This document shows, piece by piece, positions 17,448 to 36,299 of a stretch of DNA of 64,000 nucleotides. Position numbers and translations under genes: made by a program. The stretch covers positions 95,118 through 159,117 of the forward strand of contig CALWRJ010000016.1 of NCBI GenBank assembly GCA_944383915.1. Reading direction: 5' to 3'. A model generated the notes under the pieces. It saw nothing but the letters and a program-made list of their open reading frames with translations, was not told the DNA's origin and searched no databases. This DNA is from an uncultured Clostridia bacterium. Lineage in GTDB: Bacteria > Bacillota > Clostridia > Christensenellales > UBA1242. The stretch's first letter is position 1. Each line of letters starts with the position of its first letter.

Positions 17448-17804
17448 TTAAATTAACATTTTTATTCCTGCTGCAATTACAACTAGCGCAAAAATATATT
17501 GAAGCACATTATTAGATAATTTTTTAAGTAAATACGCGCCAACAATCCCACCAATTACAGAGCCGATAGCAACATTTAGCACCATATCCCATTCGACAAA
17601 ACCACTTGAATAATATACTATTGCGCTGGCAATACTTATAGGGAGCATAATGAGTATGGCTGTTGCTTGCGCATTTTTGTTTTTTAAACCTAGCAATAAA
17701 AGTGCCGTCACGCAAATCATTCCACCCCCACCACCAAAAAATCCATTAATAACACCTATAAAGACTCCAGCAAGCACTAGACCGCATACTTTCTTTGCTG
17801 TCAT
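17448..17804 (-). CDS. TauE/SafE (TSUP) family half-transporter, first gene
   Basis: A 118-residue membrane protein beginning MTAKKVCGLVLAGVFIGVIN, followed by the glycine-rich TSUP signature FFGGGGGMICV. Four hydrophobic helices are evident. I chose ATG 17804 because GGTGA lies seven bases upstream; ATG 17810 is too close to it. It forms a two-gene operon with 17000-17437. The substrate is unknown, and no sulfur metabolism genes are adjacent. Confidence 0.82.
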   Translation of the reverse strand: MTAKKVCGLVLAGVFIGVINGFFGGGGGMICVTALLLLGLKNKNAQATAILIMLPISIASAIVYYSSGFVEWDMVLNVAIGSVIGGIVGAYLLKKLSNNVLQYIFALVVIAAGIKMLI

Positions 17805-17868
17805 AATCATTTCACCCCAAAACTTTACAATTATCGCATTTTATATGCTAAAAAATGCGCTGAAAAAC

Positions 17869-17897
17869 TTGCTTTTATTTAAGTAATGATATATAAT
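17869..17897 (+). promoter_or_regulatory. Promoter of the 1080-residue surface-protein gene
   Basis: TTGCTT (17869-17874), 17-base spacer, TATAAT (17892-17897). Two ATTATGCGC copies lie between it and the start codon. Confidence 0.75.
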
Positions 17898-17955
17898 AGG
17901 TTGTATATTATGCGCTAAAATTATGCGCGCTAATTCTATCTAAAAGGTAATAATC

Positions 17956-20900
17956 ATGACTAAACATTTTTCAATTAAAAGTATTTTATTAGCAGTTATC
18001 TTGATTTTGAGTTTTTGTTTCTTGCAAAATGCTTGGTTGTTTGCGGGAATTATAGGTCAAAATCACACGAACGCTGTTGTAAATGACACGACACAAGACG
18101 CAATTAATAGCATTGATGCAACTAGTAATTTAAGCAATAATAATTTTGCATCATCTACTGGTAGCACCTCTTACCCACGCACCCCATCGAGTTGGAGCGT
18201 TTGGGACGAGGATACGCTTATAACCCCTGAAACAAGTGGTTTAATAGACATTACAAGCGCTACTTACCAACTTTACAAAGATGATTATGGATTAAACAAC
18301 TTCGCTCAACAACCACCTATTAGACAAGGTGTTAGTGAGCAAATGGTTTTGTTAATAAATAGTGGTAATAGCGGAAATGAATCAACATCATTAAACTACG
18401 GATATAAAAATGATTCTGATATAACTTTGGAAGCAAATAGTTTCTATTCTATCAGCCTATATGTTTATACTTCAAGCAATGCTCACGCAAGCGTGTATTT
18501 GACAGGCGATGATGTTGAGAGTTTAGACAGCGCTAAAATCGTAGGTATTAACACTCTTGACACTTGGCAACAAGTTACTTTCTATATTGAGACAGGCACA
18601 GATGCATCGTCATCAGTTGGACTTGAATTATTCCTTGGAGAAAAAGGTTCACAAGGCGGTAGTGCTGGATTTGTACTATTTGACAATGTAAGCATTACTC
18701 GTTACTCAGGTGATTCTTTTGAAAAAGTAAAAGATACAGGCAGGTACTTCTCATCTGTTTCTCTTGCTCCAAGTTACATTACAGAGCGTGATGGTTTCGT
18801 TACAAATGGTAATTTTGTTGAAAGCCTTACAAATGGCTGGAACCAGGAAACTTCTCAAAACTCTGTTACTCAATATGTAGCAGACTTTAACCGAACATTT
18901 ACAATTAATGACGACCAAGTTATAATTGGTACTAACCAACGCGGTGATACAACAGGAGTTCTCCTTACCACTGAAAATGGTTATAACGCAATAAAATCAG
19001 ACGATATTGAAATAAAAAGACACGGACTTTACCGCATAACTTTCTGGGCTAAAGGCGAACTTGAAAGCGGAAATATAAACTTTGTTATGTCGGGCAACCT
19101 TCCAGACGAAACAGTTTTAGAGGAAACCGAACAAAGTCAAACTATTTCGACAATTGCTACAAATACCCAAGCAATAAACAACAATTGGGCAATGTACACT
19201 TTTTATGTTGAAGGTAACCCATTATTTGATTGCACAGTAAATTTAACATTAGGAATTGGTACTGAATCAGCATCTGCAACTGGTTACATCGCTATTGCAG
19301 GCATTCAAAGTGAAAAAGTTACAACTGCTCAAAAAGACGATGCAACAAGCACAAATGGCAACACTGCAACTTTAAGTATGTACAACACTGCAACTCTAAC
19401 CTTTGCTAATGGTACTTTTAACTTAATTAATGTTGACGAAAGTATGCGTGCCCCCTATGCCCCACAAAACTGGACTGCATTAAATGAAAATAACACGACA
19501 AGTGGTGTTGTAAACATTAGTTCGGTAAACTGGGCTCAAACAGGTTTAGGATTCGCCCGCCCTGCAAAGCCTAATGGCGATTATTCGGACAATGTTTTAA
19601 TGATTAGAAATGAAACTTTGTCATATCAAGGTTATGACAGCGAAAGCGTAAGTTTGGATGCAGATGGATATGCTGAAATCACTTTCCAGGCATACACAAC
19701 AAACTTAAATGCAAGCGGTAGAGCGTATGTAACAATTAAAAATACCGATGGCATTATTTTACACCAAGTTGAGATTAATAACACAAATACTTGGAATGAT
19801 TACACAATTTATTTACACAATTATTATGTGGCACAAGACATCGTAGCCGAACTTTCTCTTGGTACTGAAGACCAAAATGCAAGCGGACGAGCATACTTTG
19901 ATAATGTTATTGTAAATACAAGTCTTACGGAAGATGCTTTTAATTCGGCAAATGAAAATTCTACCACTTTTGTAGTAGATTTGAGTTCTAACTCTTTAAC
20001 AGCAAGCACAAATGGTACTCCTACCTATTGGACCTCAAATAGTACAGTTGACCCAAGCATTGCAAGCAGTGGTATTATGGATGTACGCGATTACGAAAAT
20101 TACTTTATGGGACAACCTCTTGCACCAAGCGATGAGCAATACGATGTACTCTATATTGCAGCAACAGAACCAACTTATTACTATTTAAACAGCAACCTTG
20201 TATACAACTTTACTTCTGGCACATATTACAAAGTTAGCGTGCTTGTAAGAACTGTAGACATTACTCCTGATGTCGATGGTGAGTATGATGAAAGTGGCAA
20301 CCAAATCATTCACGGCGCTTCAATAGGTATAGATGGCATAGACAGTAGTTTTAGCGGAATCAACACAGCAAAAGAAATTGAATACTCTGCTAGCACTCCC
20401 CTAGCGCAAAAATTTGAAGATGATAAAAATGCTTGGGTTGAATACACAATGTATATCAACACTACAAGCGATGTAGAAGGAATTATTCGTTTAGGACTTG
20501 GCTCATCTACAATGCCAACGACTGGTTATGTATTTTTTGCAAACTTAACAGTTGAAAGTATGACGGAGGATGAATACAATAGTGCTACTTCGACTCTCGA
20601 TACCGAAAACTTGCCGAACAATATTGTTCTTGCAACAAATACAATCACAGATGAAGAAACAGACAGCACAGGCACTTACAACCCTATGGACTGGTTCGCT
20701 ATCCCAACAATTATTATTGCTGTGGCTGTAATCGTTGCTGTAGTTGGTTTCTACATTAAGAAATTCTATCAATCTCGCCCCGCAAAGAAAACTATTGTTA
20801 ATACAGATTATGATAGACTTCAAACTTTGTTAAAAGATGTGGACCGTAGAGAACGCAAATCAGCAATTAAGCACAAACTTGATTTGCTTCACCAAGAATT

Positions 20901-21198
20901 AAAGCAATCGCAAGAATTCTTGCAACAAGAACTTGCCGAGCTTGAAAAACAAAAAGAAGCGTTTAATACTGCAAAAGAAATTGCTCATGATAGCCCTAGC
21001 GTAGAACTTGAATTACCTGATATAAAACAAATTGAGAAAGAAATCAAAACTCAACAAGAGAAAATTGAGCAAATCGAGGGCGATATTCGCATTTTGGAAA
21101 GTGAACGCGATAGAATGATGGAACAAGTTAAGAAAGAAACTGAAAAAGCAGAACAGAAAAAAGCAAAGAAAGAACAAAACATCAAAAAGCGTAAATAA
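17956..21198 (+). CDS. Bitopic surface protein with four beta-sandwich-like repeats and cytoplasmic coiled coil
   Basis: A 1080-residue protein. An N-terminal signal or anchor spans about 8-30. The ectodomain has four repeats of about 180 residues resembling carbohydrate-binding (galactose-binding-like) modules. Each has a 'W..YT.Y' strand and ends with a G(F/Y)xxFxNxxV-type strand, for example GFVLFDNVSITRY, GRAYFDNVIVNTS and GYVFFANLTVESM. One strong membrane helix lies at about 914-936 (WFAIPTIIIAVAVIVAVVGF). About 145 charged residues follow, with heptad-like coiled coil and a Lys-rich end. There is no LPXTG. The ATG at 17956 has AAAGG upstream. Binding function is inferred. Confidence 0.8.
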   Translation: MTKHFSIKSILLAVILILSFCFLQNAWLFAGIIGQNHTNAVVNDTTQDAINSIDATSNLSNNNFASSTGSTSYPRTPSSWSVWDEDTLITPETSGLIDITSATYQLYKDDYGLNNFAQQPPIRQGVSEQMVLLINSGNSGNESTSLNYGYKNDSDITLEANSFYSISLYVYTSSNAHASVYLTGDDVESLDSAKIVGINTLDTWQQVTFYIETGTDASSSVGLELFLGEKGSQGGSAGFVLFDNVSITRYSGDSFEKVKDTGRYFSSVSLAPSYITERDGFVTNGNFVESLTNGWNQETSQNSVTQYVADFNRTFTINDDQVIIGTNQRGDTTGVLLTTENGYNAIKSDDIEIKRHGLYRITFWAKGELESGNINFVMSGNLPDETVLEETEQSQTISTIATNTQAINNNWAMYTFYVEGNPLFDCTVNLTLGIGTESASATGYIAIAGIQSEKVTTAQKDDATSTNGNTATLSMYNTATLTFANGTFNLINVDESMRAPYAPQNWTALNENNTTSGVVNISSVNWAQTGLGFARPAKPNGDYSDNVLMIRNETLSYQGYDSESVSLDADGYAEITFQAYTTNLNASGRAYVTIKNTDGIILHQVEINNTNTWNDYTIYLHNYYVAQDIVAELSLGTEDQNASGRAYFDNVIVNTSLTEDAFNSANENSTTFVVDLSSNSLTASTNGTPTYWTSNSTVDPSIASSGIMDVRDYENYFMGQPLAPSDEQYDVLYIAATEPTYYYLNSNLVYNFTSGTYYKVSVLVRTVDITPDVDGEYDESGNQIIHGASIGIDGIDSSFSGINTAKEIEYSASTPLAQKFEDDKNAWVEYTMYINTTSDVEGIIRLGLGSSTMPTTGYVFFANLTVESMTEDEYNSATSTLDTENLPNNIVLATNTITDEETDSTGTYNPMDWFAIPTIIIAVAVIVAVVGFYIKKFYQSRPAKKTIVNTDYDRLQTLLKDVDRRERKSAIKHKLDLLHQELKQSQEFLQQELAELEKQKEAFNTAKEIAHDSPSVELELPDIKQIEKEIKTQQEKIEQIEGDIRILESERDRMMEQVKKETEKAEQKKAKKEQNIKKRK

Positions 21199-21200
21199 GT

Positions 21201-21231
21201 AAAAAATCATGGTTAACCCCATGATTTTTTT
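21201..21231 (+). terminator. Terminator of the 1080-residue protein gene
   Basis: A 12-bp stem (21201-21212 with 21219-21230), six-base loop and T7 tail. Confidence 0.85.
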
Positions 21232-21386
21232 GTAATCTAGTGACAACATAACAAAAAAATATAAGTTACACTTTATTTGCAATATTTTTAATTGAACTGT
21301 CCTGTTTTTAAACGCAATGATTTAGAATATATAAAATAACATATTAATTTAGAATATTTAAAATAAAATTTAAAAATAGAAAAAAG

Positions 21387-21422
21387 AAAAGAAGTACCGA
21401 GTAAAAAATCGATACTTCTTTT
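21387..21422 (-). terminator. Terminator of uvrBA
   Basis: AAAAGAAGTA (21387-21396) pairs with TACTTCTTTT (21413-21422). The minus side continues as CTTTTTTC. Confidence 0.75.
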
Positions 21423-21495
21423 ATTATGTGATTTGTATTATTTCTTTTTATTTGAATATTTAAAATTGTTTACTTTTATTTATATTTTAAAATGT

Positions 21496-24321
21496 TTACT
21501 TTTTATTTAAAATACGATTTAAGAACTTACCAGTATAACTAATTTTAGATTTTGCAATATCCTCAGGAGTGCCTTTTGCGATTACTTCGCCACCGCCTAC
21601 ACCACCTTCTGGACCGATATCAATTATAAAATCGGCAACTTTAATTACATCAAGGTTATGCTCAATTACAATTACTGTATTTCCATTTTCGACTAACCTA
21701 TCCATAATTTTAATTAACTTATCGACATCGTAAATATGCAAACCTGTAGTTGGTTCGTCTAAAATGTAGACAGTTTTACCTGTGCTTTTCTTTGATAACT
21801 CGGTTGCTAACTTTACTCTTTGTGCTTCACCGCCACTTAATGTGGTTGCAGATTGTCCTAATTTAATATATCCCAAACCAACATCGTATAACGCTTGTAT
21901 CTTTGATTTAATTTGAGATTGATTCTCAAAAAATTTCAATGCTTCCTCAACTGTCATTTCAAGGACATCGTAAATACTTTTACCCTTGTATTTTACTTCC
22001 AAAGTTTCTCGATTATAGCGCTTTCCCTTACAAACTTCACAAGGAACATAGATATCTGGCAAGAAATACATTTCAATTTTCTTAATACCATCACCGCAAC
22101 AAGCCTCACAACGACCACCTGACACATTAAAACTAAATCTACCTGGCAAATAACCGCGTTCTTGTGCGTCTGGGGTGGCAGCAAAAAGTTCTCGAATTTG
22201 TGTAAATACGCCTGTGTATGTGGCTGGATTTGACCTAGGAGTACGACCTATTGGGCTTTGGTCAATAGCAATTACTTTGTCGACATTTTCGAGCCCTTCA
22301 ATTTTATCATATCTACCTTCTGCCATGGTACTATTATTTAATCTATTTGATAGCGCTGGATATAGAATATCTGTCACTAAACTACTCTTACCACTACCGC
22401 TTACCCCTGTTACACAAGTAAATACACCAAGAGGAAATTCTACATCGATATTTTTTAAATTATTTTCTCGCGCCCCGCGAACAATAATATTTTTGCCTGT
22501 CCCTTTTCGGCGAGTTTGTGGAACTTCAATTTTCCATTCACCACTTAAATATTTACCTGTAATTGAGAGCGGGCTTGCGATAACTTCGGGTAAAGTACCA
22601 CAAGCAACTAATTCACCACCATTTTTACCAGCATATGGACCAATATCGACTAAATAATCGGCAGCGCGCATTGTATCCTCATCGTGTTCAACAACGATTA
22701 AGGTATTTCCTAAATCGCGCAAATGCTTTAAAGTTGCAATAAGTTTATCGTTATCGCGCTGATGCAAACCAATACTTGGCTCGTCTAGAATATAGATAAC
22801 GCCTGTTAAACCGCTCCCTATTTGTGTTGCAAGTCTTATTCTTTGCGATTCACCACCACTTAGGCTACCTGCACTTCGAGATAGCGTTAAATAATTAAGC
22901 CCAACATCGCGCAAGAAATCAAGACGCGCCAACACTTCTTTTACAATAGGTTCTGCAATATAGCTTTGACTTTCGCTAAATTTGTGTTTTGTAAAAAAGT
23001 CGTGCAATTCGTCTATACTCATATTACAAAGTTTTGTTATATTTTTACCAAATATAGTTACAGCAAGAGCAATATCACGAAGCCTTTCGCCATTACATAC
23101 TTTACATGGTTTATCGCGCATATATTTAGCTATTTCGCCTTTTATATATTCGCTAGTTGTTTCTCGATAACGGCGTTGTAAGTTGTTTACTATACCTTCA
23201 AAAGAACCACGAGTATTGCCAGAAAAACGGCGAGTATTCCACGAAATATCGAGCTCCTCACCACAGTTTCCGTACATTAAAATATCTTTAATATCGCTAG
23301 GCAAATCTTTATATGGCACATCAAGGCTAAAATGATATTTATCACTTAATGCTTTAAAATAACTTTGAGAAAAAAGGCTTGTATCAAGTCCCCAGCCAGA
23401 AACATTTATTGCGCCTTCATTTATTGATTTATTTGGGTCTTTAACTATTAATTCAGGGTCGATTTCACTTGTAAAACCTAAACCGTGACATTCTGGGCAC
23501 GCACCAAAAGGATTATTAAAACTAAACAACCTAGGCGTAATTTCATCAAAACTAATTCCGCAATGTGAGCAAGCAAATTGTGTGCTAAATACAAATTGAT
23601 TGTTTGGAGTAACGACTACAACCAAACCATTCGCCGTTTTTAATGCCGTTTCAACACTTTCAGTTAAGCGCTTTTCAATATCAGGCTTCATTATAATTCT
23701 ATCAACAACTACGGAAATTGTGTGCTTTTTATTTTTATCAAGTTGAATGTCTTCATCAAAAGTATAAATATTTCCATCAATGTCGACACGAGAAAAACCA
23801 CTTTTGCGTACACTATCTAATACTTTAGTATGTTCGCCCTTCTGTCCACGGACAATAGGCGCAAGAATCATAATTTTTTCGCCTTCTTTGATTTCCGCTT
23901 GCACACGGTCTACTATTTGGTCTACACTCTGCTTTTCAATTTCGCGACCACACTTTGGGCAATGTGGAACTCCTACGCGCGCAAATAACAAGCGCAAGTA
24001 GTCATAAATTTCAGTTACTGTACCAACTGTTGAACGCGGGTTGTTACTTGTTGTCTTTTGGTCAATACTGATAGCAGGACTTAAACCGTCTATGCTGTCT
24101 ACATCAGGCTTTTGCATTTGCCCCAAAAACTGACGCGCATAACTCGACAATGATTCTACATAACGGCGTTGACCTTCCGCATAGATTGTATCAAAAGCAA
24201 GAGTTGATTTACCACTTCCACTAACTCCCGTAAAAACAATTAATTTATTGCGTGGTATCTCTAAATCTATATTTTTTAAATTATTTTCTCTTGCACCTTT
24301 AATTACTATGTTTTTTTGCAT
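21496..24321 (-). CDS. uvrA: Excinuclease ABC subunit A
   Basis: The damage-sensing ATPase of nucleotide excision repair, 941 residues, normal length. It has two ABC-type nucleotide-binding modules: Walker [10 protein letters not shown] (32-40) and a second GVSGSGKSS, each with LSGGE signatures. Zinc-binding cysteine clusters are CPKC and CPEC in the first half and CEAC...CEVC in the second. The ATG is directly adjacent to the uvrB stop, so the two are translated from one message. Confidence 0.98.
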
Positions 24322-26301
24322 TTATTTACCTTCTTTCTCTTCTCTTAATAACTTTCTTAAATAATTTAATTGCTCGCGCAACTCAATCGCCTTTTCAAAT
24401 TCAAGATTGCGACTAGCAACTTGCATAAGACCTTTTACTCTATCTATTTCTGCGCGCAAATCTTTATCGGCGAGTTTTTCCTTTGTTGTATCGACTTTTT
24501 TAGTAATTTCAATTGTATTTTTAATATCTTTCACAATTGTTTTTGGCGTAATATTGTGCTCTTTGTTGTATTCTTTTTGAATTTTGCGCCTACGCTCTGT
24601 TTCGTCAATGGCGCGTTTCATACTATCCGTAACAGTATCAGCGTACATAATTACGCGCGCTTCTGCATTTCGAGCAGCACGGCCGACAATCTGAATAAGT
24701 GAAGTATCACTACGCAAAAAGCCTTCTTTGTCTGCATCTAAAATAGCAACAAGTTTAACTTCTGGCAAATCAAGCCCTTCACGCAAAAGATTTATACCTA
24801 CTATTACATCAAATTCACCGGCACGCAAGCCATTTAAAATTTCAATACGCTCTAGAGTATCAATCTCGCTATGCAAGTATTTAACCTTAATGCCGTGCTC
24901 CATAAAAAAAGTTGTTAAGTCCTCTGCCATTCGTTTTGTTAGTGTAGTAACAAGAACTCTGCCACAACTTTCAACCGTTTTAAATATTTCACCCATTAAG
25001 TCGTCAATTTGTCCTTTTGTTTTGCGGACTTCGATTTCTGGGTCAACTAGTCCAGTTGGTCTAATAATTTGCTCTACAACTTGTCCTGCGTGTTCAAGTT
25101 CATATGGAGCGGGGGTTGCTGAAACGCACACCATTTGCCCTACTCTTGCGTCAAACTCTTCAAAAGTTAACGGACGGTTGTCATATGCTGCAGGCAACCT
25201 AAATCCATAATCGACTAGATTTTTTTTGCGCGCTTTGTCACCATTATACATACCGCGAATTTGAGGTATAGTCATATGTGACTCGTCAATAAAAGTAATG
25301 AAATCATCAGGGAAATAATCAAGCAATACATACGGCGCTTCGCCTGGTTGTCTACCGTCAAAATAACGCGAATAATTTTCTATGCCGTTACAATATCCCA
25401 TTTCTTGAATCATCTCAACATCGTGAGCAACTCTTTCCTTAATTCTTTGTGCTTCAATTAATTTACCTTGTGCAGTAAACTGTTCCTCCGCAATAACAGC
25501 ATCATCATTAATTTGCTGAAGCGCAGTTGCTTGATTTTCTGGGCTAACACCAAAGTGAGTCGCTGGGAATAGTAGAAAATGTTCTAAAGTGTTAATTTTT
25601 TTACTGGTAATAGGGTCAAATTCAAAAATTCCTTCAATTGTATCACCAAAGAACTCAACACGAATAGCTACTTCGCTACTATATGAAGGAAAAATATCAA
25701 GTGTATCTCCCTTTAACCTAAAACAAGAACGAGCAAAATCAACATCATTTCTAGCATAATGCATCGAAATTAAACGCTGAATAACTTTTCGCATATCTAT
25801 CTCTTGATTAACGCGTAAACTTAACCCCATATTGTAATAAGTTTCTGGGTTACCTAAACCATAAATACACGAAACAGAAGCCACAACTATTGTATCTCTG
25901 CGCTCAAGTAACGAACATGTTGCGCTATGACGAAGTTTATCTATTTCGTCATTTATGGCTAAGTCTTTTTCAATATAAGTATCACTGCTTGGGATATAGG
26001 CTTCTGGTTGATAGTAATCATAATAGGAGACAAAATATTCAACACGGTTGTGAGGAAAAAACTCGCGAAACTCGTTACAAAGTTGCGCGGCTAAAGTTTT
26101 GTTATGCGCTAAAACTAGCGCAGGTCTATTTAATCTTGCAATGACATTAGCCATTGTAAAAGTTTTACCACTGCCCGTTACACCCAGCAAAACTTGCTCT
26201 CTAAGTCCGTCTTTAAAACCTTCTACTAGTTTATCAATGGCTTGTGGTTGGTCGCCTGTCGGCTTATATGGTGAAACTAACTCAAAATCTTTATATTCCA
26301 T
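24322..26301 (-). CDS. uvrB: Excinuclease ABC subunit B
   Basis: The helicase-like subunit that verifies damage and loads UvrC. Of its 659 residues, Walker A is GVTGSGKT (40-47), the beta-hairpin region is [12 protein letters not shown] and the DEAD-like box is DESH. A UVR motif sits at the C-terminus ([19 protein letters not shown]) for UvrC contact. The ATG at 26301 has GGGGAT upstream. It is first in the uvrB-uvrA operon, with a good promoter. No clear LexA box was identified. Confidence 0.98.
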
Positions 26302-26337
26302 ACCTATCCCCTATTATTCCCAAATTTTAGTATAGTC

Positions 26338-26366
26338 ATTATAGCACATTTTTCGAACATTTGCAA
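26338..26366 (-). promoter_or_regulatory. uvrB: Promoter of uvrBA
   Basis: TTGCAA (26366-26361), 17-base spacer, TATAAT (26343-26338) with an extended -10 TGC. Confidence 0.8.
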
Positions 26367-26415
26367 TACAAAAGTTAAAAGTGTTTAATTGTAAATTATT
26401 GTGTATATACAAAAT

Positions 26416-26439
26416 AAAAAAGAGCCAGCGCTCTTTTTT
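26416..26439 (-). terminator. Terminator of the 1146-residue surface-protein gene
   Basis: A ten-bp stem AAAAAAGAGC/GCTCTTTTTT with loop CAGC, about 20 bases past the stop. It separates this gene from the uvrBA promoter. Confidence 0.85.
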
Positions 26440-26457
26440 ATTAGAAATTATTTGACA

Positions 26458-29400
26458 TTATTTTGTGCTTTCATCTTTTTTGGTTTCTTTGCCTTTGTTG
26501 TCATCCTTCTTAATTTTTATGTTAGCAGATGTTTTAGTCTTTGAAGGTTTTACAAAGAAGAATACTACTACACCAAGAACAATCAAAGCAACGATAATCA
26601 ATACAGTGCCCCAAATTGTAGTTGTGGTGGTTGAACTACCCGGTTCAGCGGCTACTGTAAATGTCCTAACTACTTGAGTTGCATCATTACCTGCAGTGTC
26701 TGTTACATCAAATGTAACTACATAAGTTCCAGCAGTGTCAAGTGTAATTTCAATTATATTATCGTTTGTTTCACTTCTTGAATACTCAATCGCAGTACCA
26801 TCACGAGTGATTGAAATTTCAATATCGTCAGTGTTTATGTCGGTATCATTTCCAATTGTAACTTTACTTAAATCAATTGTAAGAGTTCCGTTTATTTCAC
26901 TATCACAAGTTACAGCGTCATCAGCGAGAACAATTTCAGGTGGTGTAACATCACCAATGTTCAATACGAATGTACGACTGTAGGTGTTACCCATATTGTC
27001 AGAAACTGAGTAAACTGCATTTATCTTACCTTGTTTTGAAGCAGAAAATTCAAGTCTGTCTTCATCGTTTAAGTCCTCAATAGTGAATGTTTCAAAAGCA
27101 TCAGTTTCGTCAGCATAGGTGAGTTCTACTTGCATAGAATCAAAGTTTATACCACTACCTGTGTCTGATGTTGTAGAGAACCAAGGCAATTCATAAGTGT
27201 TGTTTGCTGGAGTTGTGTCGTCCCAACTAAAGTTTCTACCGTCAAGGTCCTCTTCTGCGATTGTAAACGCAGGATTCGTTGAATCTTCAGAAGTAAAGCT
27301 TACTCTAGCTGAACCATTTTGAACGAAATCACAAATGCCTGCATCATCTTTAGCCCAAGCACGAACCGTAATGTCACCTTCTAGTGTTACAATTTCACCT
27401 TCTAGACGGTCACTTGCTGGCAATGTGTAAGCGCCTAATACCTCAATCAAAAGTTGATTATTTGTAAGACCCGTGAAAATTTCACTATCTTCAGTTACTT
27501 CTTTGTTAGTAATTACAACATCAAGAGATTGCATTTCAATATTACGTCCAGCATCTGTTACTTGAATGTAGTCAAGCAAGTTTATAACTGTGCCATATTC
27601 TTGAGCGCTAATTCCCGAAATAGTTACCGAGTAACCATTGTTGAAGTCTACGCTGTATTTAATACTAATCGTTGAAGTGTTGTTATTTTGGTCGGTTGCT
27701 ACAAATGTAATAATGTATTCGCCTTCTTCAGTTGGTGTGTAAGATTCGGCGGTAATTGTTGCTGTTGTACCTGTTGTAGCATTAATTACATTAACAACCT
27801 TATTGTTCTTAATAACATATGCAACAAGCCTAAGGTCAGTTTGGTCTGTAAATGTTACAGTTGGTAAACTGATTTCACCATTTTCATTAGCGCCATCGAA
27901 AGTCATTGCGCTAAGTGCAGGTGCTACTATATCGCTAGAAAAGTCAACAATAGTAACATCTGCTGTTGCTGTTGCAGTAGTTGATTGAGGGTCGCGACCT
28001 GGAATTGAGTCATTTGTAGCCTTGAAAGTAATTGTTAAACCTGCAACAGTTTCCCAAACACCGTCATCCATACCCTCTGGCTCGTCAAGAGTAATACTAT
28101 AAGTGTTGTTTTCCAAAACTGCAGTTAATTCAGGACCTACAAGTCCGCTTGCTGCTCTGTATTGGTAAACAACTTCGATTTTTAAGTTAGAGTCAACGAC
28201 TGTTGTTGTGTCAACCTTATAATCAGTTGCAACAGGTGCGTTGAATGTAATTGTGCTACCCTTTCTTGCTGATTTAGCAACAGTAGGAGCAGTAACAGTT
28301 AAAGTTGTTTCCATTTCGCTTGTGCTGTTTACTTCCTCAATAACGAAAGTATAACTTGGCAATTGCTTAGTAGTACCATTAATTTCGCTACCATCATCTT
28401 TTACATAGTGAGCCTCGTATCTAATTGTGTAAGTACCAGCATTTTCAAAAGTGTAACTTGCTACTTCATTAGGTAAAAAGTTTCTTTGTGGGTCAACTGA
28501 AGTATTTGTGCGGTTTTCCAAAGTCGCAAGTAAACTGTTGTTGCGGTAGATTGTACGAGTGAGTTTTAAGTTGTCATAGTCACCCCAACCGCCTTTTGCA
28601 AAGATTGCAGGGAAATTAACAGTTACATCTTGATTTGTAAGTTTAAATACTGTACTTGGAATATCATAATCAGCATTAACCATTTCGTCAATATCAAGAT
28701 TTTCAACATTTTCTACACTATATGGCTCTACTACTTTTACAGTAATAGAATTACCTGTGAGTCTTACATAGTTTTTGTGAATAGTAAAGTGAGTTGTTGC
28801 GCCTGTAAAATCTCTAATGTTGTACTCAATCGTGTAGTTACCTGCTTCTGGTGGTGTAAATGTATAGTTTGTAATAGGTCCGTAAGTTTGGTTTGTAGTG
28901 TTGTTTGTAATAGTAATTTCGGTGTATACACCACTAACAGTTGCGTTGTTAGCCAAAGTATTAACTATTGTTGGAGTTGGTAAAGTAGCTTCTTGCCCAA
29001 CAGACAATGATAAATTCTCAACACCGCTGCCACTCCAACCATTGATTGCTAGAGCAACCTCAGGTCTACTAGATACGACATTAAATGTGTATCTTTGGTA
29101 AATCATACTACCAGCGTTGTTGTAACTGTAACGAACAGTGAATGTTCCATTATCAGTGTTAATGTCTTGAACAGTATAAGTTTTGTAACTTACGCCATTG
29201 ATTGTTTCATCTTGCAAAGTGCGGTATTCACCGTCAGCACCTTCAAGAGTAATTGTAACATCGTTGTTTGCACTAAATGGCTCGTCATCACCTAGTTTGA
29301 TTTGAGGCCAAGGGAATACAATCTTATCCTCTGCTTGCACAACAGTAGGAATAATTTGTGCACTATTTGTGTCAAATTCCATTACAGCATCTTTTGTAGT

Positions 29401-29898
29401 AATATTTATTTGAATATCACGAGTTGCAGTGCTGATGTCGTTAGTATTTGAAGTTGCTGTATAAGTAATATAATAAGTGTCCGATTGGCTAACACTTATA
29501 ATTTGCGTGTCGCTTTCATCAACTTGACTTACAGGAACTTCAACACCAGATGAATTACGAACAGTCGTTGTCAAAGTATAGTCACCGTCTGCACCTTCTG
29601 TCCCTGGTGAAACGCCTGCTACATTACTAGAACTTGAAAGTTTTACAGTTGCGGTTGGAAGTACAAAACCTCTTACGCTTTGTCCGTCAACTGTGTAATT
29701 AGTTAAATCATCGTAATCGTAGCTAGACTTGTAATTTGTCAATTCAATAATATAATAACCGTCTTGACTTTGCCCGCCAGTAATTGTTGTAACACCACTA
29801 GCGAGTGTAAGTAGCATAGGACTTAATAAACCAAATGATAATGTTACCATTAGCACAAAGGCTAATAAAGTCATTCTGCCAAATAATTTCGTTTTCAT
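26458..29898 (-). CDS. Bitopic surface protein with Ig-like repeats and a Lys-rich cytoplasmic tail
   Basis: A 1146-residue protein. The N-terminal signal peptide spans about 1-35 (TLLAFVLMVTLSFGLLSPML). The ectodomain is made of roughly eight to ten Ig-like, PKD or cadherin-type beta modules. Typical endings are YTFTPPEAGNYTIEYNIRD, YTPTEEGEYIITFVATD and YVVTFDVTDTAGNDA. One membrane helix lies at about 1093-1115 (IWGTVLIIVALIVLGVVVFF). A tail of about 30 residues is rich in Lys and Asp/Glu. There is no sortase motif. The ATG at 29898 follows AAGGAG. The role is probably structural or adhesive, by inference. Confidence 0.82.
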   Translation of the reverse strand: MKTKLFGRMTLLAFVLMVTLSFGLLSPMLLTLASGVTTITGGQSQDGYYIIELTNYKSSYDYDDLTNYTVDGQSVRGFVLPTATVKLSSSSNVAGVSPGTEGADGDYTLTTTVRNSSGVEVPVSQVDESDTQIISVSQSDTYYITYTATSNTNDISTATRDIQINITTKDAVMEFDTNSAQIIPTVVQAEDKIVFPWPQIKLGDDEPFSANNDVTITLEGADGEYRTLQDETINGVSYKTYTVQDINTDNGTFTVRYSYNNAGSMIYQRYTFNVVSSRPEVALAINGWSGSGVENLSLSVGQEATLPTPTIVNTLANNATVSGVYTEITITNNTTNQTYGPITNYTFTPPEAGNYTIEYNIRDFTGATTHFTIHKNYVRLTGNSITVKVVEPYSVENVENLDIDEMVNADYDIPSTVFKLTNQDVTVNFPAIFAKGGWGDYDNLKLTRTIYRNNSLLATLENRTNTSVDPQRNFLPNEVASYTFENAGTYTIRYEAHYVKDDGSEINGTTKQLPSYTFVIEEVNSTSEMETTLTVTAPTVAKSARKGSTITFNAPVATDYKVDTTTVVDSNLKIEVVYQYRAASGLVGPELTAVLENNTYSITLDEPEGMDDGVWETVAGLTITFKATNDSIPGRDPQSTTATATADVTIVDFSSDIVAPALSAMTFDGANENGEISLPTVTFTDQTDLRLVAYVIKNNKVVNVINATTGTTATITAESYTPTEEGEYIITFVATDQNNNTSTISIKYSVDFNNGYSVTISGISAQEYGTVINLLDYIQVTDAGRNIEMQSLDVVITNKEVTEDSEIFTGLTNNQLLIEVLGAYTLPASDRLEGEIVTLEGDITVRAWAKDDAGICDFVQNGSARVSFTSEDSTNPAFTIAEEDLDGRNFSWDDTTPANNTYELPWFSTTSDTGSGINFDSMQVELTYADETDAFETFTIEDLNDEDRLEFSASKQGKINAVYSVSDNMGNTYSRTFVLNIGDVTPPEIVLADDAVTCDSEINGTLTIDLSKVTIGNDTDINTDDIEISITRDGTAIEYSRSETNDNIIEITLDTAGTYVVTFDVTDTAGNDATQVVRTFTVAAEPGSSTTTTTIWGTVLIIVALIVLGVVVFFFVKPSKTKTSANIKIKKDDNKGKETKKDESTK

Positions 29899-29931
29899 TT
29901 AAGGTCTCCTTGTAAATTTAGTAACATTGTG

Positions 29932-29960
29932 ATTTTATAACATTAGCGAGATTTTGTCAA
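29932..29960 (-). promoter_or_regulatory. Promoter of the 1146-residue surface-protein gene
   Basis: Perfect TTGACA (29960-29955), 17-base spacer, TAAAAT (29937-29932). Confidence 0.75.
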
Positions 29961-30068
29961 CAAATTACGCTATAATTTTCTAAACAATTCGCGCTTTTTT
30001 TACATTTCTAGTTTGTTATATAGCCTTTCTTTTATTCTGTAAATAAAAGACTTATTTTGTCGAAACCT

Positions 30069-30102
30069 TAAAAACGAAAAACAACCCTATTAATTAGGGT
30101 TG
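30069..30102 (-). terminator. Terminator of the Cys-rich small gene
   Basis: An eight-bp stem CAACCCTA/TAGGGTTG (30082-30089 with 30095-30102), then GTTTTTCGTTTTT on the minus strand. Confidence 0.85.
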
Positions 30103-30108
30103 CTTAAA

Positions 30109-30324
30109 TTAGTTGCAGCAGAATGAGTCGTTACCGCAATTTTTCTTTTTGAAACAGCAGCAGAAGAAAAGTAACAAGATTAAAATGGTACACCAATCTA
30201 ATCCGCAGTTAAAAATACCGCAATTCATTAGTACATATAAAATAACTAACCATGTAAGTACATCACAACTGGTATTTTTCCCTGCGTTACAACCACAGCC
30301 ATTACCGAAAAGTTTGCTAAACAT
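30109..30324 (-). CDS. Cysteine-rich small membrane protein
   Basis: A 71-residue protein with 12 cysteines, including CGC (10-12), CCC (55-57), a CC pair (69-70) and C63. A long hydrophobic centre (about 21-58) could make one or two membrane spans. The ATG at 30324 is preceded by GGAGG eight bases upstream; an in-frame ATG at 30339 overlaps that site and is less likely. It is monocistronic with its own terminator. I do not recognise the family; metal binding or disulfide crosslinking are possible. Confidence 0.75.
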   Translation of the reverse strand: MFSKLFGNGCGCNAGKNTSCDVLTWLVILYVLMNCGIFNCGLDWCTILILLLFFCCCFKKKNCGNDSFCCN

Positions 30325-30458
30325 CTTTTGGACCTCCATATCTATTGTTTATTAGGGAATTTTGTCATTATGTAAATTCTTTCGTACTTAAATACTTTTG
30401 TATTTCTTTGTAAGACTTATCTCTACATTGTCAGTATATAATAGTTTAGGTCAAAATG

Positions 30459-31136
30459 TTACAATTTTGAAGCCATTATTTCACCACTTGCGGTATCAAT
30501 AACCAAACAAATTTCTTTTCCGTCAGTATTTATAAAACGGATGTACCAGAAATAAACTCCAATATTTCGGTCTGTTGTAATAATACGAACATAACCTTCA
30601 ATAGATTTATTATCGTCTGTTAGAGCAAGAATCTGCTCCCCAACATTTTCAATAGCAATATCAAGTGCTTGTGTACTATTTACTGTAAAATTACATGACA
30701 CACAAGAAAGTTTTCCCGTTTCTGTAATTCCGTCATGTATTATGTCTGCAAAAATTGTATCAGAATCCGTCACTAGAAAATCAAGTGCAGCAGCAAAACT
30801 ATTATCAAACGGGCTTTTTTGAAATTCTCCTGAATATGGTTTATCATTTATTTCTAGATTATAATTAAGCCCAAATGTACCTACATTTCCAACTGGCACA
30901 ACGCTTAAGATACAAAAATCTAGCATTTGACCACGGATACCATCAGGCTCAAAAGGCTCTTCCCTTACCCCGCTCCAAAGTGAAATTTGAAAATTTTCCG
31001 TTGAGCCGATAAAATAATGATTATGCATTTCTGCTATATTGTTTTTTGCTAAATCCTCAATTGTAGTACCACATCCTGTAAATAAAAATGTAATCATAAA
31101 AATAGGCAATATAGAAAAAAGGTAACGAAATTTCAT
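30459..31136 (-). CDS. Lipoprotein of unknown function
   Basis: A 225-residue secreted lipoprotein. The signal peptide ends in the lipobox FTGC (C22), so it is anchored to the outer face of the membrane. The C-terminal segment (ICLVIDTASGEIMASK) resembles the end strand of PepSY-like domains, a weak similarity. The ATG at 31136 follows AAGGAG. It stands alone between rpiB and the Cys-rich gene. Confidence 0.8.
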   Translation of the reverse strand: MKFRYLFSILPIFMITFLFTGCGTTIEDLAKNNIAEMHNHYFIGSTENFQISLWSGVREEPFEPDGIRGQMLDFCILSVVPVGNVGTFGLNYNLEINDKPYSGEFQKSPFDNSFAAALDFLVTDSDTIFADIIHDGITETGKLSCVSCNFTVNSTQALDIAIENVGEQILALTDDNKSIEGYVRIITTDRNIGVYFWYIRFINTDGKEICLVIDTASGEIMASKL

Positions 31137-31219
31137 TTTTTCAAAACTCCTTTACCTTAATTATATTATATTATTTTCCTAAAAATTATAAAAATATTAG
31201 CGAAAAAAGAATTTACTGA

Positions 31220-31648
31220 CTATTTTTGGTCGATTTGAGCCATTCTTTCTGCATAAACACCACCTAGGGCTTCTGTGTTTAAAAAAACATTAACAATTTT
31301 TTTTGCAATAAAGCCACAAGTGCTACGACCAGCAAGTACTAAAACATTAATATCGTTGTGTTGACGCGCCAAACGAGCGGTTTTAATATTCGTGCAAAGC
31401 CCAGCACGAATAAGTGGATTTCTATTTGCGGCTATGCTCATTCCGATACCAGTTCCGCATATTAAAATACCTTTATCATCTTTTGAACTTGATACTTTAT
31501 CTGTTAAAAATTTAGCATATTTAGGAAAATCTGTTCTTTCGCTAGAAAAAGTACCCAAATCGGTTAGGTCTATATTCTTATTTTTTAAATAACTAATTAA
31601 TTTTTGTTTCAACGCATAACCAGCGTGATCACTTGCTAAATATAACAT
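31220..31648 (-). CDS. rpiB: Ribose-5-phosphate isomerase B / sugar-phosphate isomerase, RpiB/LacAB family
   Basis: It interconverts ribose 5-phosphate and ribulose 5-phosphate, or a related sugar phosphate, in the cytosol. The 142 residues fit the family. ASDHAGYALK is at the N-terminus, CGTGIGMSIAANR carries the catalytic Cys, and ARQHND follows. I chose ATG 31648; the upstream GTG (31660) lies inside the GGTGG ribosome site. The gene is on the minus strand downstream of the surface-protein operon terminator. Confidence 0.9.
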   Translation of the reverse strand: MLYLASDHAGYALKQKLISYLKNKNIDLTDLGTFSSERTDFPKYAKFLTDKVSSSKDDKGILICGTGIGMSIAANRNPLIRAGLCTNIKTARLARQHNDINVLVLAGRSTCGFIAKKIVNVFLNTEALGGVYAERMAQIDQK

Positions 31649-31709
31649 AATTTCAACCACCTTCCATTATTATAAATAATTTTTTAAAAAATATCAATTA
31701 AAAAACGAT

Positions 31710-31734
31710 AAAAGACTGCTTTTTGCAGCCTTTT
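31710..31734 (-). terminator. Terminator of the giant surface-protein operon
   Basis: CTGC/GCAG stem extended by AAAAG/CTTTT with one mismatch and a T5 loop, just after the stop at 31740. Confidence 0.6.
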
Positions 31735-31739
31735 AATCA

Positions 31740-34700
31740 TTATTTTTTATTAGGTTTTGTTTTTGTTGCAGTTTTCGGTTTTTGAGACTTTTCATTTTTA
31801 GTAGTTTTACCTTGTGTTTTTTCTGATTTGGTGGTTTCCTTTTCAGATTTTTTCACTTTTTCAACTTCACTTTTAGAATCGTCTGTTTTTAAAACAGGTT
31901 CTGCAATTTTTGCCGTTTTATTATTTTTCACAGGTTCGCCCTTGTGATTTATAGGAGCAACTGTAATTTTCCTTACAGGTATTGGTGAAATATTTGCTTT
32001 TGTATTTTTCCTTGTAGGTATAGGCTCAATAGTGTCGCGATAGTTATTTCTACGAGTTGATTTTTGCAATACTTCCTTATCGTCTTTACTGTTAAGCAAT
32101 ACGCGAACAGGCATAGGCTCTGCTTCTTTCATCTTAATATAAGCAATAGAACCAGCAATTAAAACTATTGCAAATAGAGCACACCCAGCAAGAATAATTA
32201 CAATATTCCAATCAAAATTTTTCCTAAATAGAGCACGGACTTCAAGGTCACCATTAACATTCAAATTTAACTGTTCATCGGTGCTTACTATAACATCATT
32301 AACTAACCAACCTACAAAAGTGCAATTATTTTCTGTAACTGCTTGAAGTGTTAGGGTATCGTGATATTTACCAGTACCGCTTCCAATTACTTTTCCATAC
32401 TCATCGTTACTTGATTCAAATGAAATAGTAAATAATGGCTCAAAAATTGCTTCGACTATTTCATCATTATCACCTACTACAAAAGTAAGTTCAGGATTTT
32501 GTGTTTCTTGACCATTGTGAATCCATTTTGTAAATATATAGCCGTCATTTGCTTTTGCTGTTAGCGTTACCAAAGTTCCTTCAATGTAATCACCTAAGCC
32601 TGTAACATATCCAGCTTTATTGTCTGAAACTTGAGCAGAAACTTTTGAAATAGGCTCGAAGTTAGCATAAATACGACTTGCTCTATCTACAAATATTGAA
32701 AGTGTGTTTTCGTTACTTACATAAGCGCCTTGTACCGATTGGCTATTAGTTGTCCAAATAAACCAGCCAACAAAACGGTAGCCGTCATTTGTTGTTTCAG
32801 TCAAAACTATTTGTTCACCATATCTATAAGAGTTAGCATAAGCGCCTTCAACGCCACCTGCTTGAGAATACTCTAAATATTGTCCACTATCACTGTCCCA
32901 CCTTACCACATCAACGCTTATTGTATAATTAACAGGCTCAAACACTGCTACCACACTCATTTGTCCAAGTCCAACAATAAATGAATATGTGATATTTGTT
33001 GAAACAGGTGCACCATTAATCAACCAGTGGCTAAAAGCGTAACGTTTAGCATTATCGCTTGTTAGGTTTACACTAACTACAACATTAGCCATATATGCTT
33101 TTTCAAGAGTTGTATTAGAATCTATTATAACATTATCAACCATTAATAGATTATTAGCTGTAAAGCCTTGAGTCGTAAATGATACTTCAGTATTTTTAGG
33201 TGCAAACACAGCTGTTAAATAAATGTTATCAGTTATGCTTGAGCAAGTAAATCCTATCGTACCGTCATCATTAAATACTACATTATCTAACTGAGATGGC
33301 TCCCATCTAACAAATGAAAACATTTGTGGTACATTTATACTTACGACAACATTTTGTCCATATGTATAACTTCCCGTTCCTATAATGCAATCATTACTAA
33401 TATTGAACGCTGATTGTCCTTCTATAACCGTTGATACAAATACAGTATATAAAATTTGTTCAACTGTTATAGTAATATTTTTTGTTCCTTTTATTGAAAC
33501 AATATTACCTGAGATGTAATTAGTATTAGATTCATCAACAATACTAACAACATTATAACCAGGATTTGCAACTACATTTAAAATTATATTAGTATTGTAG
33601 TCAAATTCATTTGTCCCTAACAAACTTGTGCCACCTGTGCCATTAGTTACGCTAACAACATCGCTAACTGGCTCACCACTTGTATCTAAAACATTAACTG
33701 TCAAATTATAACTGAGAATTGTAAATATAGGTGTAATAACATAGTTTCCTGAAACACCATTAAAAGTCAAAGTCGCTTCAGTTCCATTATAAGAAACTTC
33801 GTCATTAGAACCAACTGTAAACGGTTCATCATTTAGAGTTACAGTAAAGCCTTCAAACTCATACCCTTCTGAAACTATTGCTGTAACTACTACAGTATCA
33901 TCAAAGTAGAATTTACCAGAAATTAATTCACCTTCAGTATATTCCATCCTACCGCCAGTTGTCTGATTTAAAGTAATTAAGTAACTTTGTTTATCAAAAT
34001 TAGGTAGAATTGTAATTGGTCCTTCTTTATCTACTGTAAATCTAAATATATAAACATTGTCTTGAAAATCAGTATAGATTTGAGTAACAGGGTTTTGATT
34101 TGCGTAAGTTATTGTCCAAGATTTAAATGCAAATCTTTCGTTATCGCTAAGAGAAACTCTTAATTCTATATTATCTCCATAGTGAACTACAGTATTTTCA
34201 TCAAGTGTTGTTTCTTGATTATTTACAAGTGCAGTAATTGTTGCTGTTACACTAGTATCATACTCACCTAAGTTTAAACTATAGTCTGTCAATGCCATAG
34301 AAATACCAATTTGGATAGTGGAAGGTATTTGGTCACTATTTGAAGTCATATAACCGTCAATATAATCTTTTACAATTAATTGATATGTTCCTTCATTTGT
34401 AGTAACTTCTCCATATGAACTTTCTACATTAGTAACTTTGTATCCTGTATTACCTACGATATCCATTGTAATTACATCATTATATCTTACATAAACAGGG
34501 TCTCTTGAATTTATTTCATCAAAACTATATTCATTTTCGTTAACTGTAAATTTAGTATCACTAGAAATATTGTTTAGTTGTAGACTTGTCACATTGATAG
34601 CATAAGTTGCAAAATCTTCAACAGCAACGATTTCACGGTCATAACCTGTAAATAATAGGTACGCACCATCATCACCACTTGAACTTTCTTGCACATTTAT

Positions 34701-36299
34701 TCTTTGTTCTGTCGGATTAGGAATAATTGAGTTTGGTAAATTTCTAATTAGCCAAGTATTGTCGAAAACATATTGCTCATCTGCAATTATGTTTAGACGC
34801 ACACCCATTTCAAAACCTACTTCATATAAAGTAAAGTTTGCATTAGCTGGTGTAATTCCGCTTGAAGTAGACCCAACAGGTCCAACATCTACTAAAGATT
34901 CGTCTATTACATTACCATCAACATCTTCTGCAGTGAAAGTAAATTTAACAAGTTGTGGAACATTTGCAAGTACTGGTATACCATTATTTACTTGGTTACC
35001 ACTTACCCAAACAGTTGAAACATTATTAGCCCAACCAGAATCAATTCGTGTTAAATTAAGACCATTTTCGCCATTATACATATCTCTCAATGTAGTTAAA
35101 GCATATCCACTGCCATAATCTCTAGTAAAAGTATAATCACCTGTTAAATATGTAGCGGCATTATTGTAAAGAGTTGACGAATCCACAGGTTTTTTACCCA
35201 ATATATAACCAATATCGGTTGAATCATTAGATACATTTAGTTTAGCAACTTGAGCGGTATTAATTGTTGCATAAACAACAGCTGCTGAACGATACTCGGT
35301 ATAACCAACTATACCACCTACACAACCATTCTCAAGCGTTGAATAAACATCGTAATTTTGATTGTAATCATTCGTTGATGAAGGCGCGTTGTAGCAGTTA
35401 AATACCACAGCACCACCTTCTAGTTCACCAACCAAACCACCTACAATTGCTCCACCAGAAATGAATCCTGTATTATAACAATCCTCTATAGCAAGTGCTG
35501 CATTAATATTTGAATATTGTCTTTGGACACCACTATCACTTTCTGTTGTGTATGCACTAGAACCATAAGTAGGAGTTATAATCCTTTCAGATGGTACGGT
35601 ATTTACATCTTGCCCCATAGCAAAAGCAACAATTGACCCCGAATATTCGCGATTTGTTTGGATAAGCGTATCTTTTAAGCCAAGTCTTTGGATAACAGGT
35701 TTATATTCTACATCACCTGCTAAATTATAAGCAACATATCCAAACAATCCAGCATAACTATCTTCCGTTGCAACTGAATCGTCTAAAATGGTAAGTCCAT
35801 ATATAGAATGCCCATTACCATTAAAATTTCCATAGAATGGTGAAACATCAGTCCCGATCGGCACCCACTGATTCCACATAGAAATATCTATATGATTTTC
35901 CATTCTATAAGAGGCAGTAGCATACTTATTACGGAGAGTAGCAGAAACTTCCGAGCCCGTTGTCCCACCATTAACAAGGTAAGCAAGAGTACGCAAATCA
36001 TCACTAGTACTTATTAAATAAGGATTAGTTATAGAATTTGCGCTTCCTGGACTAGCCAAGTTAAAGTATTCGGCTGAATCTCCTTCACCACTCAAGATTG
36101 TCGGCGTAAAATCATCAAAAGAAGTAACCACTTGAGTAGTTTCGGTAGACTCATCACCATCTACAGCACTCAAATACTCATTTTTCGCCCCAAGCCCTGC
36201 TGTAATTACAAATACAGCAGATATTACTACCAAACACAATATTGCAAAAAGCATAAAAATTGTGTGTGTATTTTGCTTAAAGCCCTTTTTCAAACTCAT
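31740..36299 (-). CDS. Giant bitopic surface protein with GLUG-like and InlB-type repeats
   Basis: A 1519-residue protein. An N-terminal signal or anchor spans about 14-35. A GLUG-type beta-helical region follows at about 80-430 (YGNFNGNGHSIYGL, AIVGGLVGEL, VGGIVGYTE). Eight or more divergent InlB-type repeats come next, each ending xVAVFEP or xANFEP and carrying GYRFVGW or GYIFTKW. One membrane helix lies at about 1364-1386 (IVIILAGCALFAIVLIAGSI). A basic tail of about 130 residues is rich in Lys, Thr and Ser. The ATG at 36299 follows GGAGG; an earlier in-frame start (36338) lacks one. It lies 44 bases downstream of the PHP gene. Confidence 0.85.
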   Translation of the reverse strand: MSLKKGFKQNTHTIFMLFAILCLVVISAVFVITAGLGAKNEYLSAVDGDESTETTQVVTSFDDFTPTILSGEGDSAEYFNLASPGSANSITNPYLISTSDDLRTLAYLVNGGTTGSEVSATLRNKYATASYRMENHIDISMWNQWVPIGTDVSPFYGNFNGNGHSIYGLTILDDSVATEDSYAGLFGYVAYNLAGDVEYKPVIQRLGLKDTLIQTNREYSGSIVAFAMGQDVNTVPSERIITPTYGSSAYTTESDSGVQRQYSNINAALAIEDCYNTGFISGGAIVGGLVGELEGGAVVFNCYNAPSSTNDYNQNYDVYSTLENGCVGGIVGYTEYRSAAVVYATINTAQVAKLNVSNDSTDIGYILGKKPVDSSTLYNNAATYLTGDYTFTRDYGSGYALTTLRDMYNGENGLNLTRIDSGWANNVSTVWVSGNQVNNGIPVLANVPQLVKFTFTAEDVDGNVIDESLVDVGPVGSTSSGITPANANFTLYEVGFEMGVRLNIIADEQYVFDNTWLIRNLPNSIIPNPTEQRINVQESSSGDDGAYLLFTGYDREIVAVEDFATYAINVTSLQLNNISSDTKFTVNENEYSFDEINSRDPVYVRYNDVITMDIVGNTGYKVTNVESSYGEVTTNEGTYQLIVKDYIDGYMTSNSDQIPSTIQIGISMALTDYSLNLGEYDTSVTATITALVNNQETTLDENTVVHYGDNIELRVSLSDNERFAFKSWTITYANQNPVTQIYTDFQDNVYIFRFTVDKEGPITILPNFDKQSYLITLNQTTGGRMEYTEGELISGKFYFDDTVVVTAIVSEGYEFEGFTVTLNDEPFTVGSNDEVSYNGTEATLTFNGVSGNYVITPIFTILSYNLTVNVLDTSGEPVSDVVSVTNGTGGTSLLGTNEFDYNTNIILNVVANPGYNVVSIVDESNTNYISGNIVSIKGTKNITITVEQILYTVFVSTVIEGQSAFNISNDCIIGTGSYTYGQNVVVSINVPQMFSFVRWEPSQLDNVVFNDDGTIGFTCSSITDNIYLTAVFAPKNTEVSFTTQGFTANNLLMVDNVIIDSNTTLEKAYMANVVVSVNLTSDNAKRYAFSHWLINGAPVSTNITYSFIVGLGQMSVVAVFEPVNYTISVDVVRWDSDSGQYLEYSQAGGVEGAYANSYRYGEQIVLTETTNDGYRFVGWFIWTTNSQSVQGAYVSNENTLSIFVDRASRIYANFEPISKVSAQVSDNKAGYVTGLGDYIEGTLVTLTAKANDGYIFTKWIHNGQETQNPELTFVVGDNDEIVEAIFEPLFTISFESSNDEYGKVIGSGTGKYHDTLTLQAVTENNCTFVGWLVNDVIVSTDEQLNLNVNGDLEVRALFRKNFDWNIVIILAGCALFAIVLIAGSIAYIKMKEAEPMPVRVLLNSKDDKEVLQKSTRRNNYRDTIEPIPTRKNTKANISPIPVRKITVAPINHKGEPVKNNKTAKIAEPVLKTDDSKSEVEKVKKSEKETTKSEKTQGKTTKNEKSQKPKTATKTKPNKK

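Follow-up and report, generated by a model that had tools for sequence, protein, structure and literature searches.

Sortase-anchored LPXTG proteins combine a signal peptide, a long repeat ectodomain and a C-terminal hydrophobic segment followed by basic residues. Here we describe three giant proteins, P1, P2 and P3, which end in a single membrane helix and a tail predicted to be cytoplasmic. They are encoded in a stretch of 64,000 nucleotides (the window; contig CALWRJ010000016.1, positions 95,118 to 159,117) from an uncultured Clostridia bacterium of the UBA1242 group (order Christensenellales). The genome comprises about 1.18 Mb at a completeness of 96.8% and gave no match to sortase (PF04203). 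P1 lies beside a pair of genes encoding half-length TauE proteins. For UBA1242, a survey from 2025 reported that the standard sugar, amino-acid and peptide transporters are missing and that there are many hypothetical membrane proteins (PMC12306168). In chicken caeca UBA1242 increases with age, according to a further study (PMC13155120). The three proteins and two of their tails are the following:

17956..21198, plus strand: P1, 1080 amino acids (aa); signal-like N-terminus, predicted tandem CBM4/16-like beta-sandwich modules, helix at about 914-939, tail with a YDRLQTLLKD motif and helices
20770..21195, plus strand: cytoplasmic tail of P1, residues 939-1080; modelled helices 964-1011 and 1023-1079
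26458..29898, minus strand: P2, 1146 aa; signal-like N-terminus, Ig-like matches below the Pfam cut-offs, helix at about 1098-1116, lysine-rich tail of about 30 aa
31740..36299, minus strand: P3, 1519 aa; N-terminal hydrophobic segment, InlB B-repeats (Flg_new_2), helix at about 1366-1384, tail with three P-x-P-x-R repeats
31743..32141, minus strand: cytoplasmic tail of P3, found in the genus only

An earlier note on this DNA, made from the letters alone, had described these three open frames as sharing an N-terminal hydrophobic segment, a single C-terminal membrane helix and tails of about 145, 30 and 130 residues without LPXTG, and our analysis bears this out. The strongest 19-residue hydropathy windows are residues 5-23 and 914-932 in P1, 11-29 and 1098-1116 in P2, and 14-32 and 1366-1384 in P3, all reaching at least 2.2, while the remaining windows do not exceed 1.22 in P2 and 1.45 in P3 and none is above 1.2 in P1. 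The tails measure about 141-148, 30 and 130-135 residues. No LPXTG-type motif is present near the C-terminus of any of the three, and the sole match of a relaxed pattern is an internal LPASD at position 826 of P2. Furthermore, the first 60 residues of P1, P2 and P3 contain no lipobox cysteine, and a Pfam scan of the three proteins detected neither SLH nor CW_binding_2 domains. A-x-A-like sites, judged by eye, suggest that the N-terminal signals might be cleaved.

The mean pairwise amino-acid identity within the genus (9 sequences for P1, 9 for P2 and 7 for P3) is highest in the C-terminal helix of all three proteins (0.72, 0.78 and 0.77 for P1, P2 and P3, respectively). The ectodomains reach 0.48, 0.45 and 0.39 and the tails 0.63, 0.42 and 0.57. 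Tail identity thus exceeds ectodomain identity in P1 and P3, indicating that these two tails are more constrained than the ectodomains in front of them, whereas the tail of P2 is not conserved. Synonymous difference in the genus set is alike in ectodomain and tail, but near saturation.

We surveyed the P1 tail in 65 loci, one per genome (a duplicate, L123, was removed), restricted to hits with a given locus and including ten from the own genus. The C-terminus is complete in 58 of these loci, the remaining seven running off their stretch. All 58 complete homologues possess the C-terminal helix and exhibit more lysine and arginine in the 15 residues after it than in the 15 before it. Because of this constant basic flank, and because conservation in all three proteins peaks in the helix, the shared architecture does not arise by chance; it is real. 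Tail length in the P1 homologues ranges from 13 to 287 aa. In 46 of the 58 tails a Y[DNS][RK] motif is found in the first 60 residues behind the helix, 45 of them having it at a distance of 15-21 residues, and the strict form Y[DN][RK]xx[TS] is present in 38. This juxtamembrane tyrosine motif is spread more widely among the homologues than the coiled coil which had been predicted for the P1 tail. For P1 itself this prediction holds: its heptad score was matched by none of 200 shuffles, and the model contains long helices. Applying a limit of at most 10 of 200 shuffles scoring as high to homologue tails of at least 70 aa, we detected the heptad pattern in 23 of 44, comprising 22 of 33 in the own family and 1 of 11 outside, so that the coiled coil appears to be mostly limited to the own family. 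Of the tails from outside the family, 16 of 21 terminate with an aromatic residue and then acidic residues, an ending seen in none of the 37 tails from within it.

P2 was found in 23 of 24 family genomes and in none of 16 others. Except for a KPSK-like start, its tail is a lysine-rich stub of poor conservation. The P3 tail is present in all ten genus genomes and in none of 26 others, and its three P-x-P-x-R motifs are the sole occurrences among 17,575 residues, counted over the six-frame stop-to-stop frames of the window longer than 200 aa. Among ten P3 sequences, including the window's own and some partial ones, seven keep three motifs and three keep two, and none has the motif elsewhere. The most likely start of P3 is the ATG at 36299 instead of the longer TTG frame to 36338, because the orthologues begin near there. 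Close to P3 lies another giant protein, P4 (37279-41949, about 1530 aa, with a DUF6273 match), which despite this closeness has no C-terminal membrane helix.

Screening about 200 kb of the own genome yielded 18 frames of at least 350 aa with a hydrophobic segment at the N-terminus and no more than one further such segment, and only P1, P2 and P3 among them combine a C-terminal helix with a tail. The remaining frames have plain signals, lipobox-like sites or anchor-like segments at the N-terminus, and for some a location at the surface is improbable. A similar KYKLYTML-type N-terminal anchor is shared by LRR, DUF6273 or InlB-repeat-like proteins of the window (2438-4189 and 12225-14147) and of two homologous loci (L097 4889-7024; L102 4634-7105). 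These proteins are without a C-terminal helix, and some of them end in a similar short N-x-G-V/I-like stretch.

Like sortase, the domains Gram_pos_anchor (LPXTG), SLH and CW_binding_2 had no match in the own genome. Sortase was matched in only one of the 24 family genomes searched (G014), compared to 8 of the 16 genomes which represent other families of the order, and the values for Gram_pos_anchor are 0 of 24 and 6 of 16. SLH and CW_binding_2 gave no match in any of the 40 genomes in searches that included positive controls. All 40 genomes, including the own one, contain a PBP transpeptidase, and therefore cells of this lineage probably have a wall. It might be that a sortase-like enzyme cuts the C-terminal hydrophobic part, since a sorting signal has a broadly similar layout, with basic residues behind a hydrophobic segment, and one family genome has a sortase match. 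We consider such processing very improbable: both the motif near the C-terminus and the enzyme and anchor matches in the own genome are missing, and P1 and P3 have tails whose length and degree of conservation do not suit it.

The earlier note had proposed looking for conserved neighbours, and the strongest association, absent from that note, was a divergent pair of half-length TauE/SafE genes; no scaffold partner appeared. The region upstream of P1 comprises:

17448..17810, minus strand: TauE2, 120 aa; C-terminal half of Pfam TauE (124-237 of 237); first gene 5' of P1, divergent
17000..17437, minus strand: TauE1, 145 aa; N-terminal half of Pfam TauE (1-113 of 237)
17811..17955, no strand: TauE2-P1 intergenic region; TTGC / 17 nt / TATAAT promoter-like pair and a ribosome-binding site towards P1

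Both proteins score above the Pfam TauE cut-off and are therefore members of the TSUP family. Among the 60 loci with a 5' flank of 400 nt or more, 54 have a divergent TauE match within 900 nt of P1, representing 12 of 13 families. The misses are L015, L029, L030, L140, L158 and L162; in the genome of L015 a TauE gene is located about 1.9 kb away on the same contig, and in that of L029 on other contigs. Two later loci stand outside this count, one with the TauE pair beside P1 (G031) and one without (G023). We also compared the 20-kb surroundings of P1, some of them cut by contig ends, in 16 of the 26 other family genera encountered in a single-sequence search for P1. TauE2 is the -1 neighbour in all 16 and TauE1 the -2 neighbour in 14. 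The other flank is scrambled, its most frequent +1 neighbour occurring in 5 of 16 genera. Three loci (L138, L145, L157) have a single TauE frame of 254-260 aa instead of the pair.

Five genomes with a TauE match and no clear P1 (G034, G041, G043, G046, G047) allowed us to examine how exclusive the association is. A diverged P1 adjoins the TauE pair in G034, G041 has a TauE of 271 aa without P1, and no TauE frame was recognised within the stretch taken from G046. In G043 and G047 half-length pairs occur without P1, and we rejected an exclusive bond for this reason. As far as gene order goes, the link between P1 and TauE is strong but not exclusive. Half-length pairs without P1 as neighbour were seen in L152 (8102-9066) and L154 (7834-8660), where a gene of about 300 aa precedes on the same strand. 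A sigma factor gene (16230-16934), located near P1 in the own genus, was dismissed as a partner, being near P1 in only 2 of 16 other loci. All 9 of the 9 genus members keep the promoter-like pair and the ribosome-binding site, and visual inspection adds one member of the next genus; the pair is absent from the list of a consensus scanner, and its first hexamer fits the consensus at 3 of 6 positions. After the TauE genes of L106 (2771-7946) there follow genes for a Ppx/GppA protein, MreB, a MinD-like ATPase and an M50 protease. L107, L108, L112 and L114 resemble this locus in gene sizes and order, the Pfam names coming from L106 only.

P1 showed no match in Pfam or NCBIfam. Its model contains CBM4/16-like beta-sandwiches, followed by the helix and the helical tail. 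The modules are thus modelled with a CBM4/16 beta-sandwich fold, and carbohydrate binding is a prediction only. A search with a single sequence detected P1 in 34 of 36 genomes of the own family and in 8 of 24 others, 42 of 60 in total. With a profile and a limit of E 0.001, P1 matches came from 108 of the 151 genomes searched in the order, many of the weaker ones being partial. Judged by these matches, P1 is a gene spread through the order Christensenellales. In a draw of 291 genomes of the class, some of them from the order, seven matches at E 1e-10 came from outside the order, each covering about 100-140 positions. The module is thus a shared one, while the complete P1 architecture was encountered only in the order. 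Three of these proteins were scanned: two match PMT mannosyltransferases, and the third gave CBM_4_9 and GT87 below the cut-off. The P1 CBM-like module thus also occurs in membrane glycosyltransferases of other Clostridia (L165, L171, L173; PMT in two, a weak GT87 in one). At the start of seven P1 homologues from other families (L133, L140, L142, L150, L151, L158, L160) we noticed a lipobox by eye. Such proteins would be held in the membrane at both ends, and their ectodomain should form a loop. No title or abstract opening among those searched in the literature names P1 or its pairing with TauE, which leaves absence from print unproven.

The best explanation for these observations, which we put forward tentatively and at a little under an even chance, is that bitopic proteins replace sortase anchoring in this lineage and that P1 is a glycan-binding-like receptor or scaffold acting with the TauE pair and an inner partner. 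It builds on the topology signals, the conservation of helices and tails, the absence of a sortase match, the gene pairing and the modelled fold. The N-terminal signal would drive export and the C-terminal helix would halt it, leaving the tail in the cytoplasm, so that P1, P2 and P3 would be type I bitopic proteins substituting for sortase-anchored ones in cells that retain peptidoglycan enzymes. Outside, the tandem modules of P1 may bind a glycan of the wall, of a neighbouring cell or of the host. At the membrane, P1 might contact or gate a transporter composed of the two half-length TSUP proteins. Inside, the juxtamembrane Y-D-R motif and, in the own family, the helical tail could dock a cytoplasmic partner; P3 may dock via its P-x-P-x-R motifs, and P2 is probably just anchored. 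A more specific version, in which P1, TauE2 and TauE1 would form one envelope machine of the Christensenellales, with a glycan-reading receptor gating a two-piece TSUP channel and a tail reporting to or held by the inner partner, seems doubtful to us.

We further compared P1 with sortase in 16 genomes (G036-G051) representing 16 families of the order, uncorrected for the species tree. All seven with a strong P1 profile hit (G037, G040, G042, G044, G048, G049, G051; E 1e-15 to 1e-86) are without a sortase match. Eight of the nine with a weak or no P1 hit have one, and G043 has neither; the completeness of G041 is only 51%. This mutual exclusion in the 16 genomes led us to abandon the idea that P1 predates the loss of sortase. 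Alternatively, P1, P2 and P3 may be passive anchors, the helix and basic tail serving as a stop-transfer where sortase is missing, with unspecific tails and a TauE neighbour that is merely inherited gene order. The mutual exclusion would be expected if one anchor replaces another, and the lysine-rich stub of P2 and the wide variation in length and type among the P1 tails would suit this explanation, too. Nevertheless we regard it as unlikely, if a serious contender, because the tails of P1 and P3 evolve more slowly than the ectodomains, their YDR and P-x-P-x-R motifs are retained, and TauE2 stays in place in every genus surveyed despite the scrambled other flank. As the exclusion favours a passive anchor and a receptor acting with TauE alike, it leaves our weighting of the two unchanged.

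Several points weigh against the receptor explanation. Gene pairing does not equal physical contact, and the 16 genera compared are a part of the family from which G012, G015 and G023 are absent. P1 is present without a TauE pair in these three and in G059, and TauE pairs without P1 as neighbour (G043, G047) count likewise. The tails are very variable, and the coil is restricted to a part of them. That P1 and sortase exclude each other suits a plain anchor equally well and may stem from the shared ancestry of the families. A CBM fold in a model is no proof of sugar binding. The TSUP substrates proposed so far are small anions, and we know of no established link between TSUP proteins and glycans. 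The tails in G012, G015 and G023 are short (30, 31 and about 51 aa), but a connection between loss of TauE and loss of the long tail was dropped as independent evidence because the three form one clade. The P1 ectodomain tree is midpoint-rooted for drawing only, has long branches and places rows from other families inside the own family; we therefore do not infer from it in which order tails were gained. In G059, which has no TauE match, a second giant protein with a C-terminal helix and a basic tail is encoded close to the P1 homologue (L158 2-5023).

The tails had originally been thought to couple the surface layer to an internal scaffold or signalling partner. This idea survives in changed form: a membrane helix with an inner tail does stand where a sortase signal is usual, and the tails of P1 and P3 are conserved. 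That of P2 is not, that of P3 is restricted to the genus, and the heptad pattern fades outside the family; furthermore, our survey found no internal scaffold or signalling partner. In its strict form, with the tails linking the surface to a filament in the cytoplasm or to a protein of cell division or cell shape, the idea could draw on the helical P1 tail and on the Ppx/GppA, MreB and MinD-like genes after TauE in L106, a locus which four others resemble in gene sizes and order. We consider it rather improbable, as this gene order is confined to a minority of loci and the coil is found in just one of the longer tails outside the family. It is also conceivable that a membrane protease sheds the ectodomain or frees the tail as a signal. 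Single-pass topology and a conserved juxtamembrane motif would suit regulated cleavage, and the M50-type protease gene of L106 lies near P1, but it is named in this one locus only and does not adjoin P1, making cleavage quite improbable.

If P1 does operate as a machine with TauE, it would be an outside-to-inside coupling device in bacteria without sortase and, in UBA1242, without ordinary sugar and peptide importers. P1 and TauE would be a concrete, conserved candidate for how uncultured gut Clostridia with reduced genomes grip surfaces and obtain metabolites, and the tail motif is short and testable. The exclusion of P1 and sortase in the tested genomes also invites the question of what takes the place of sortase in bacteria with a wall.

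Compared to known systems, P1, P2 and P3 share with LPXTG surface proteins the layout of signal, long ectodomain and C-terminal hydrophobic and basic part, but differ from them in the missing C-terminal LPXTG, in a genome without a sortase match and in the long, conserved tails of P1 and P3. From CBM4 and CBM16 modules P1 differs by the lack of a Pfam match and by its tandem modules on a membrane-spanning protein, with binding only predicted. The P1 adhesin of Mycoplasma pneumoniae is described as a giant surface protein that crosses the membrane and belongs to a machinery with parts both inside the cell and on its surface (PMC4923136). It is comparable to the P1 of our window only in how it may work, no homology being claimed, and its host is wall-less. 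To our knowledge, this adhesin has no TauE partner. Another pairing is known from the magnetosome proteases MamE and MamO, to which TauE domains are fused, and in one species a TauE protein is needed for magnetosome formation (PMC4287615). This indicates only that a TauE domain can serve with extracytoplasmic partners. TauE1 and TauE2 match the two halves of Pfam TauE and thereby resemble the TauE/SafE (TSUP, DUF81) transporters; unlike the usual members, they are split in two genes and paired with a giant bitopic protein.

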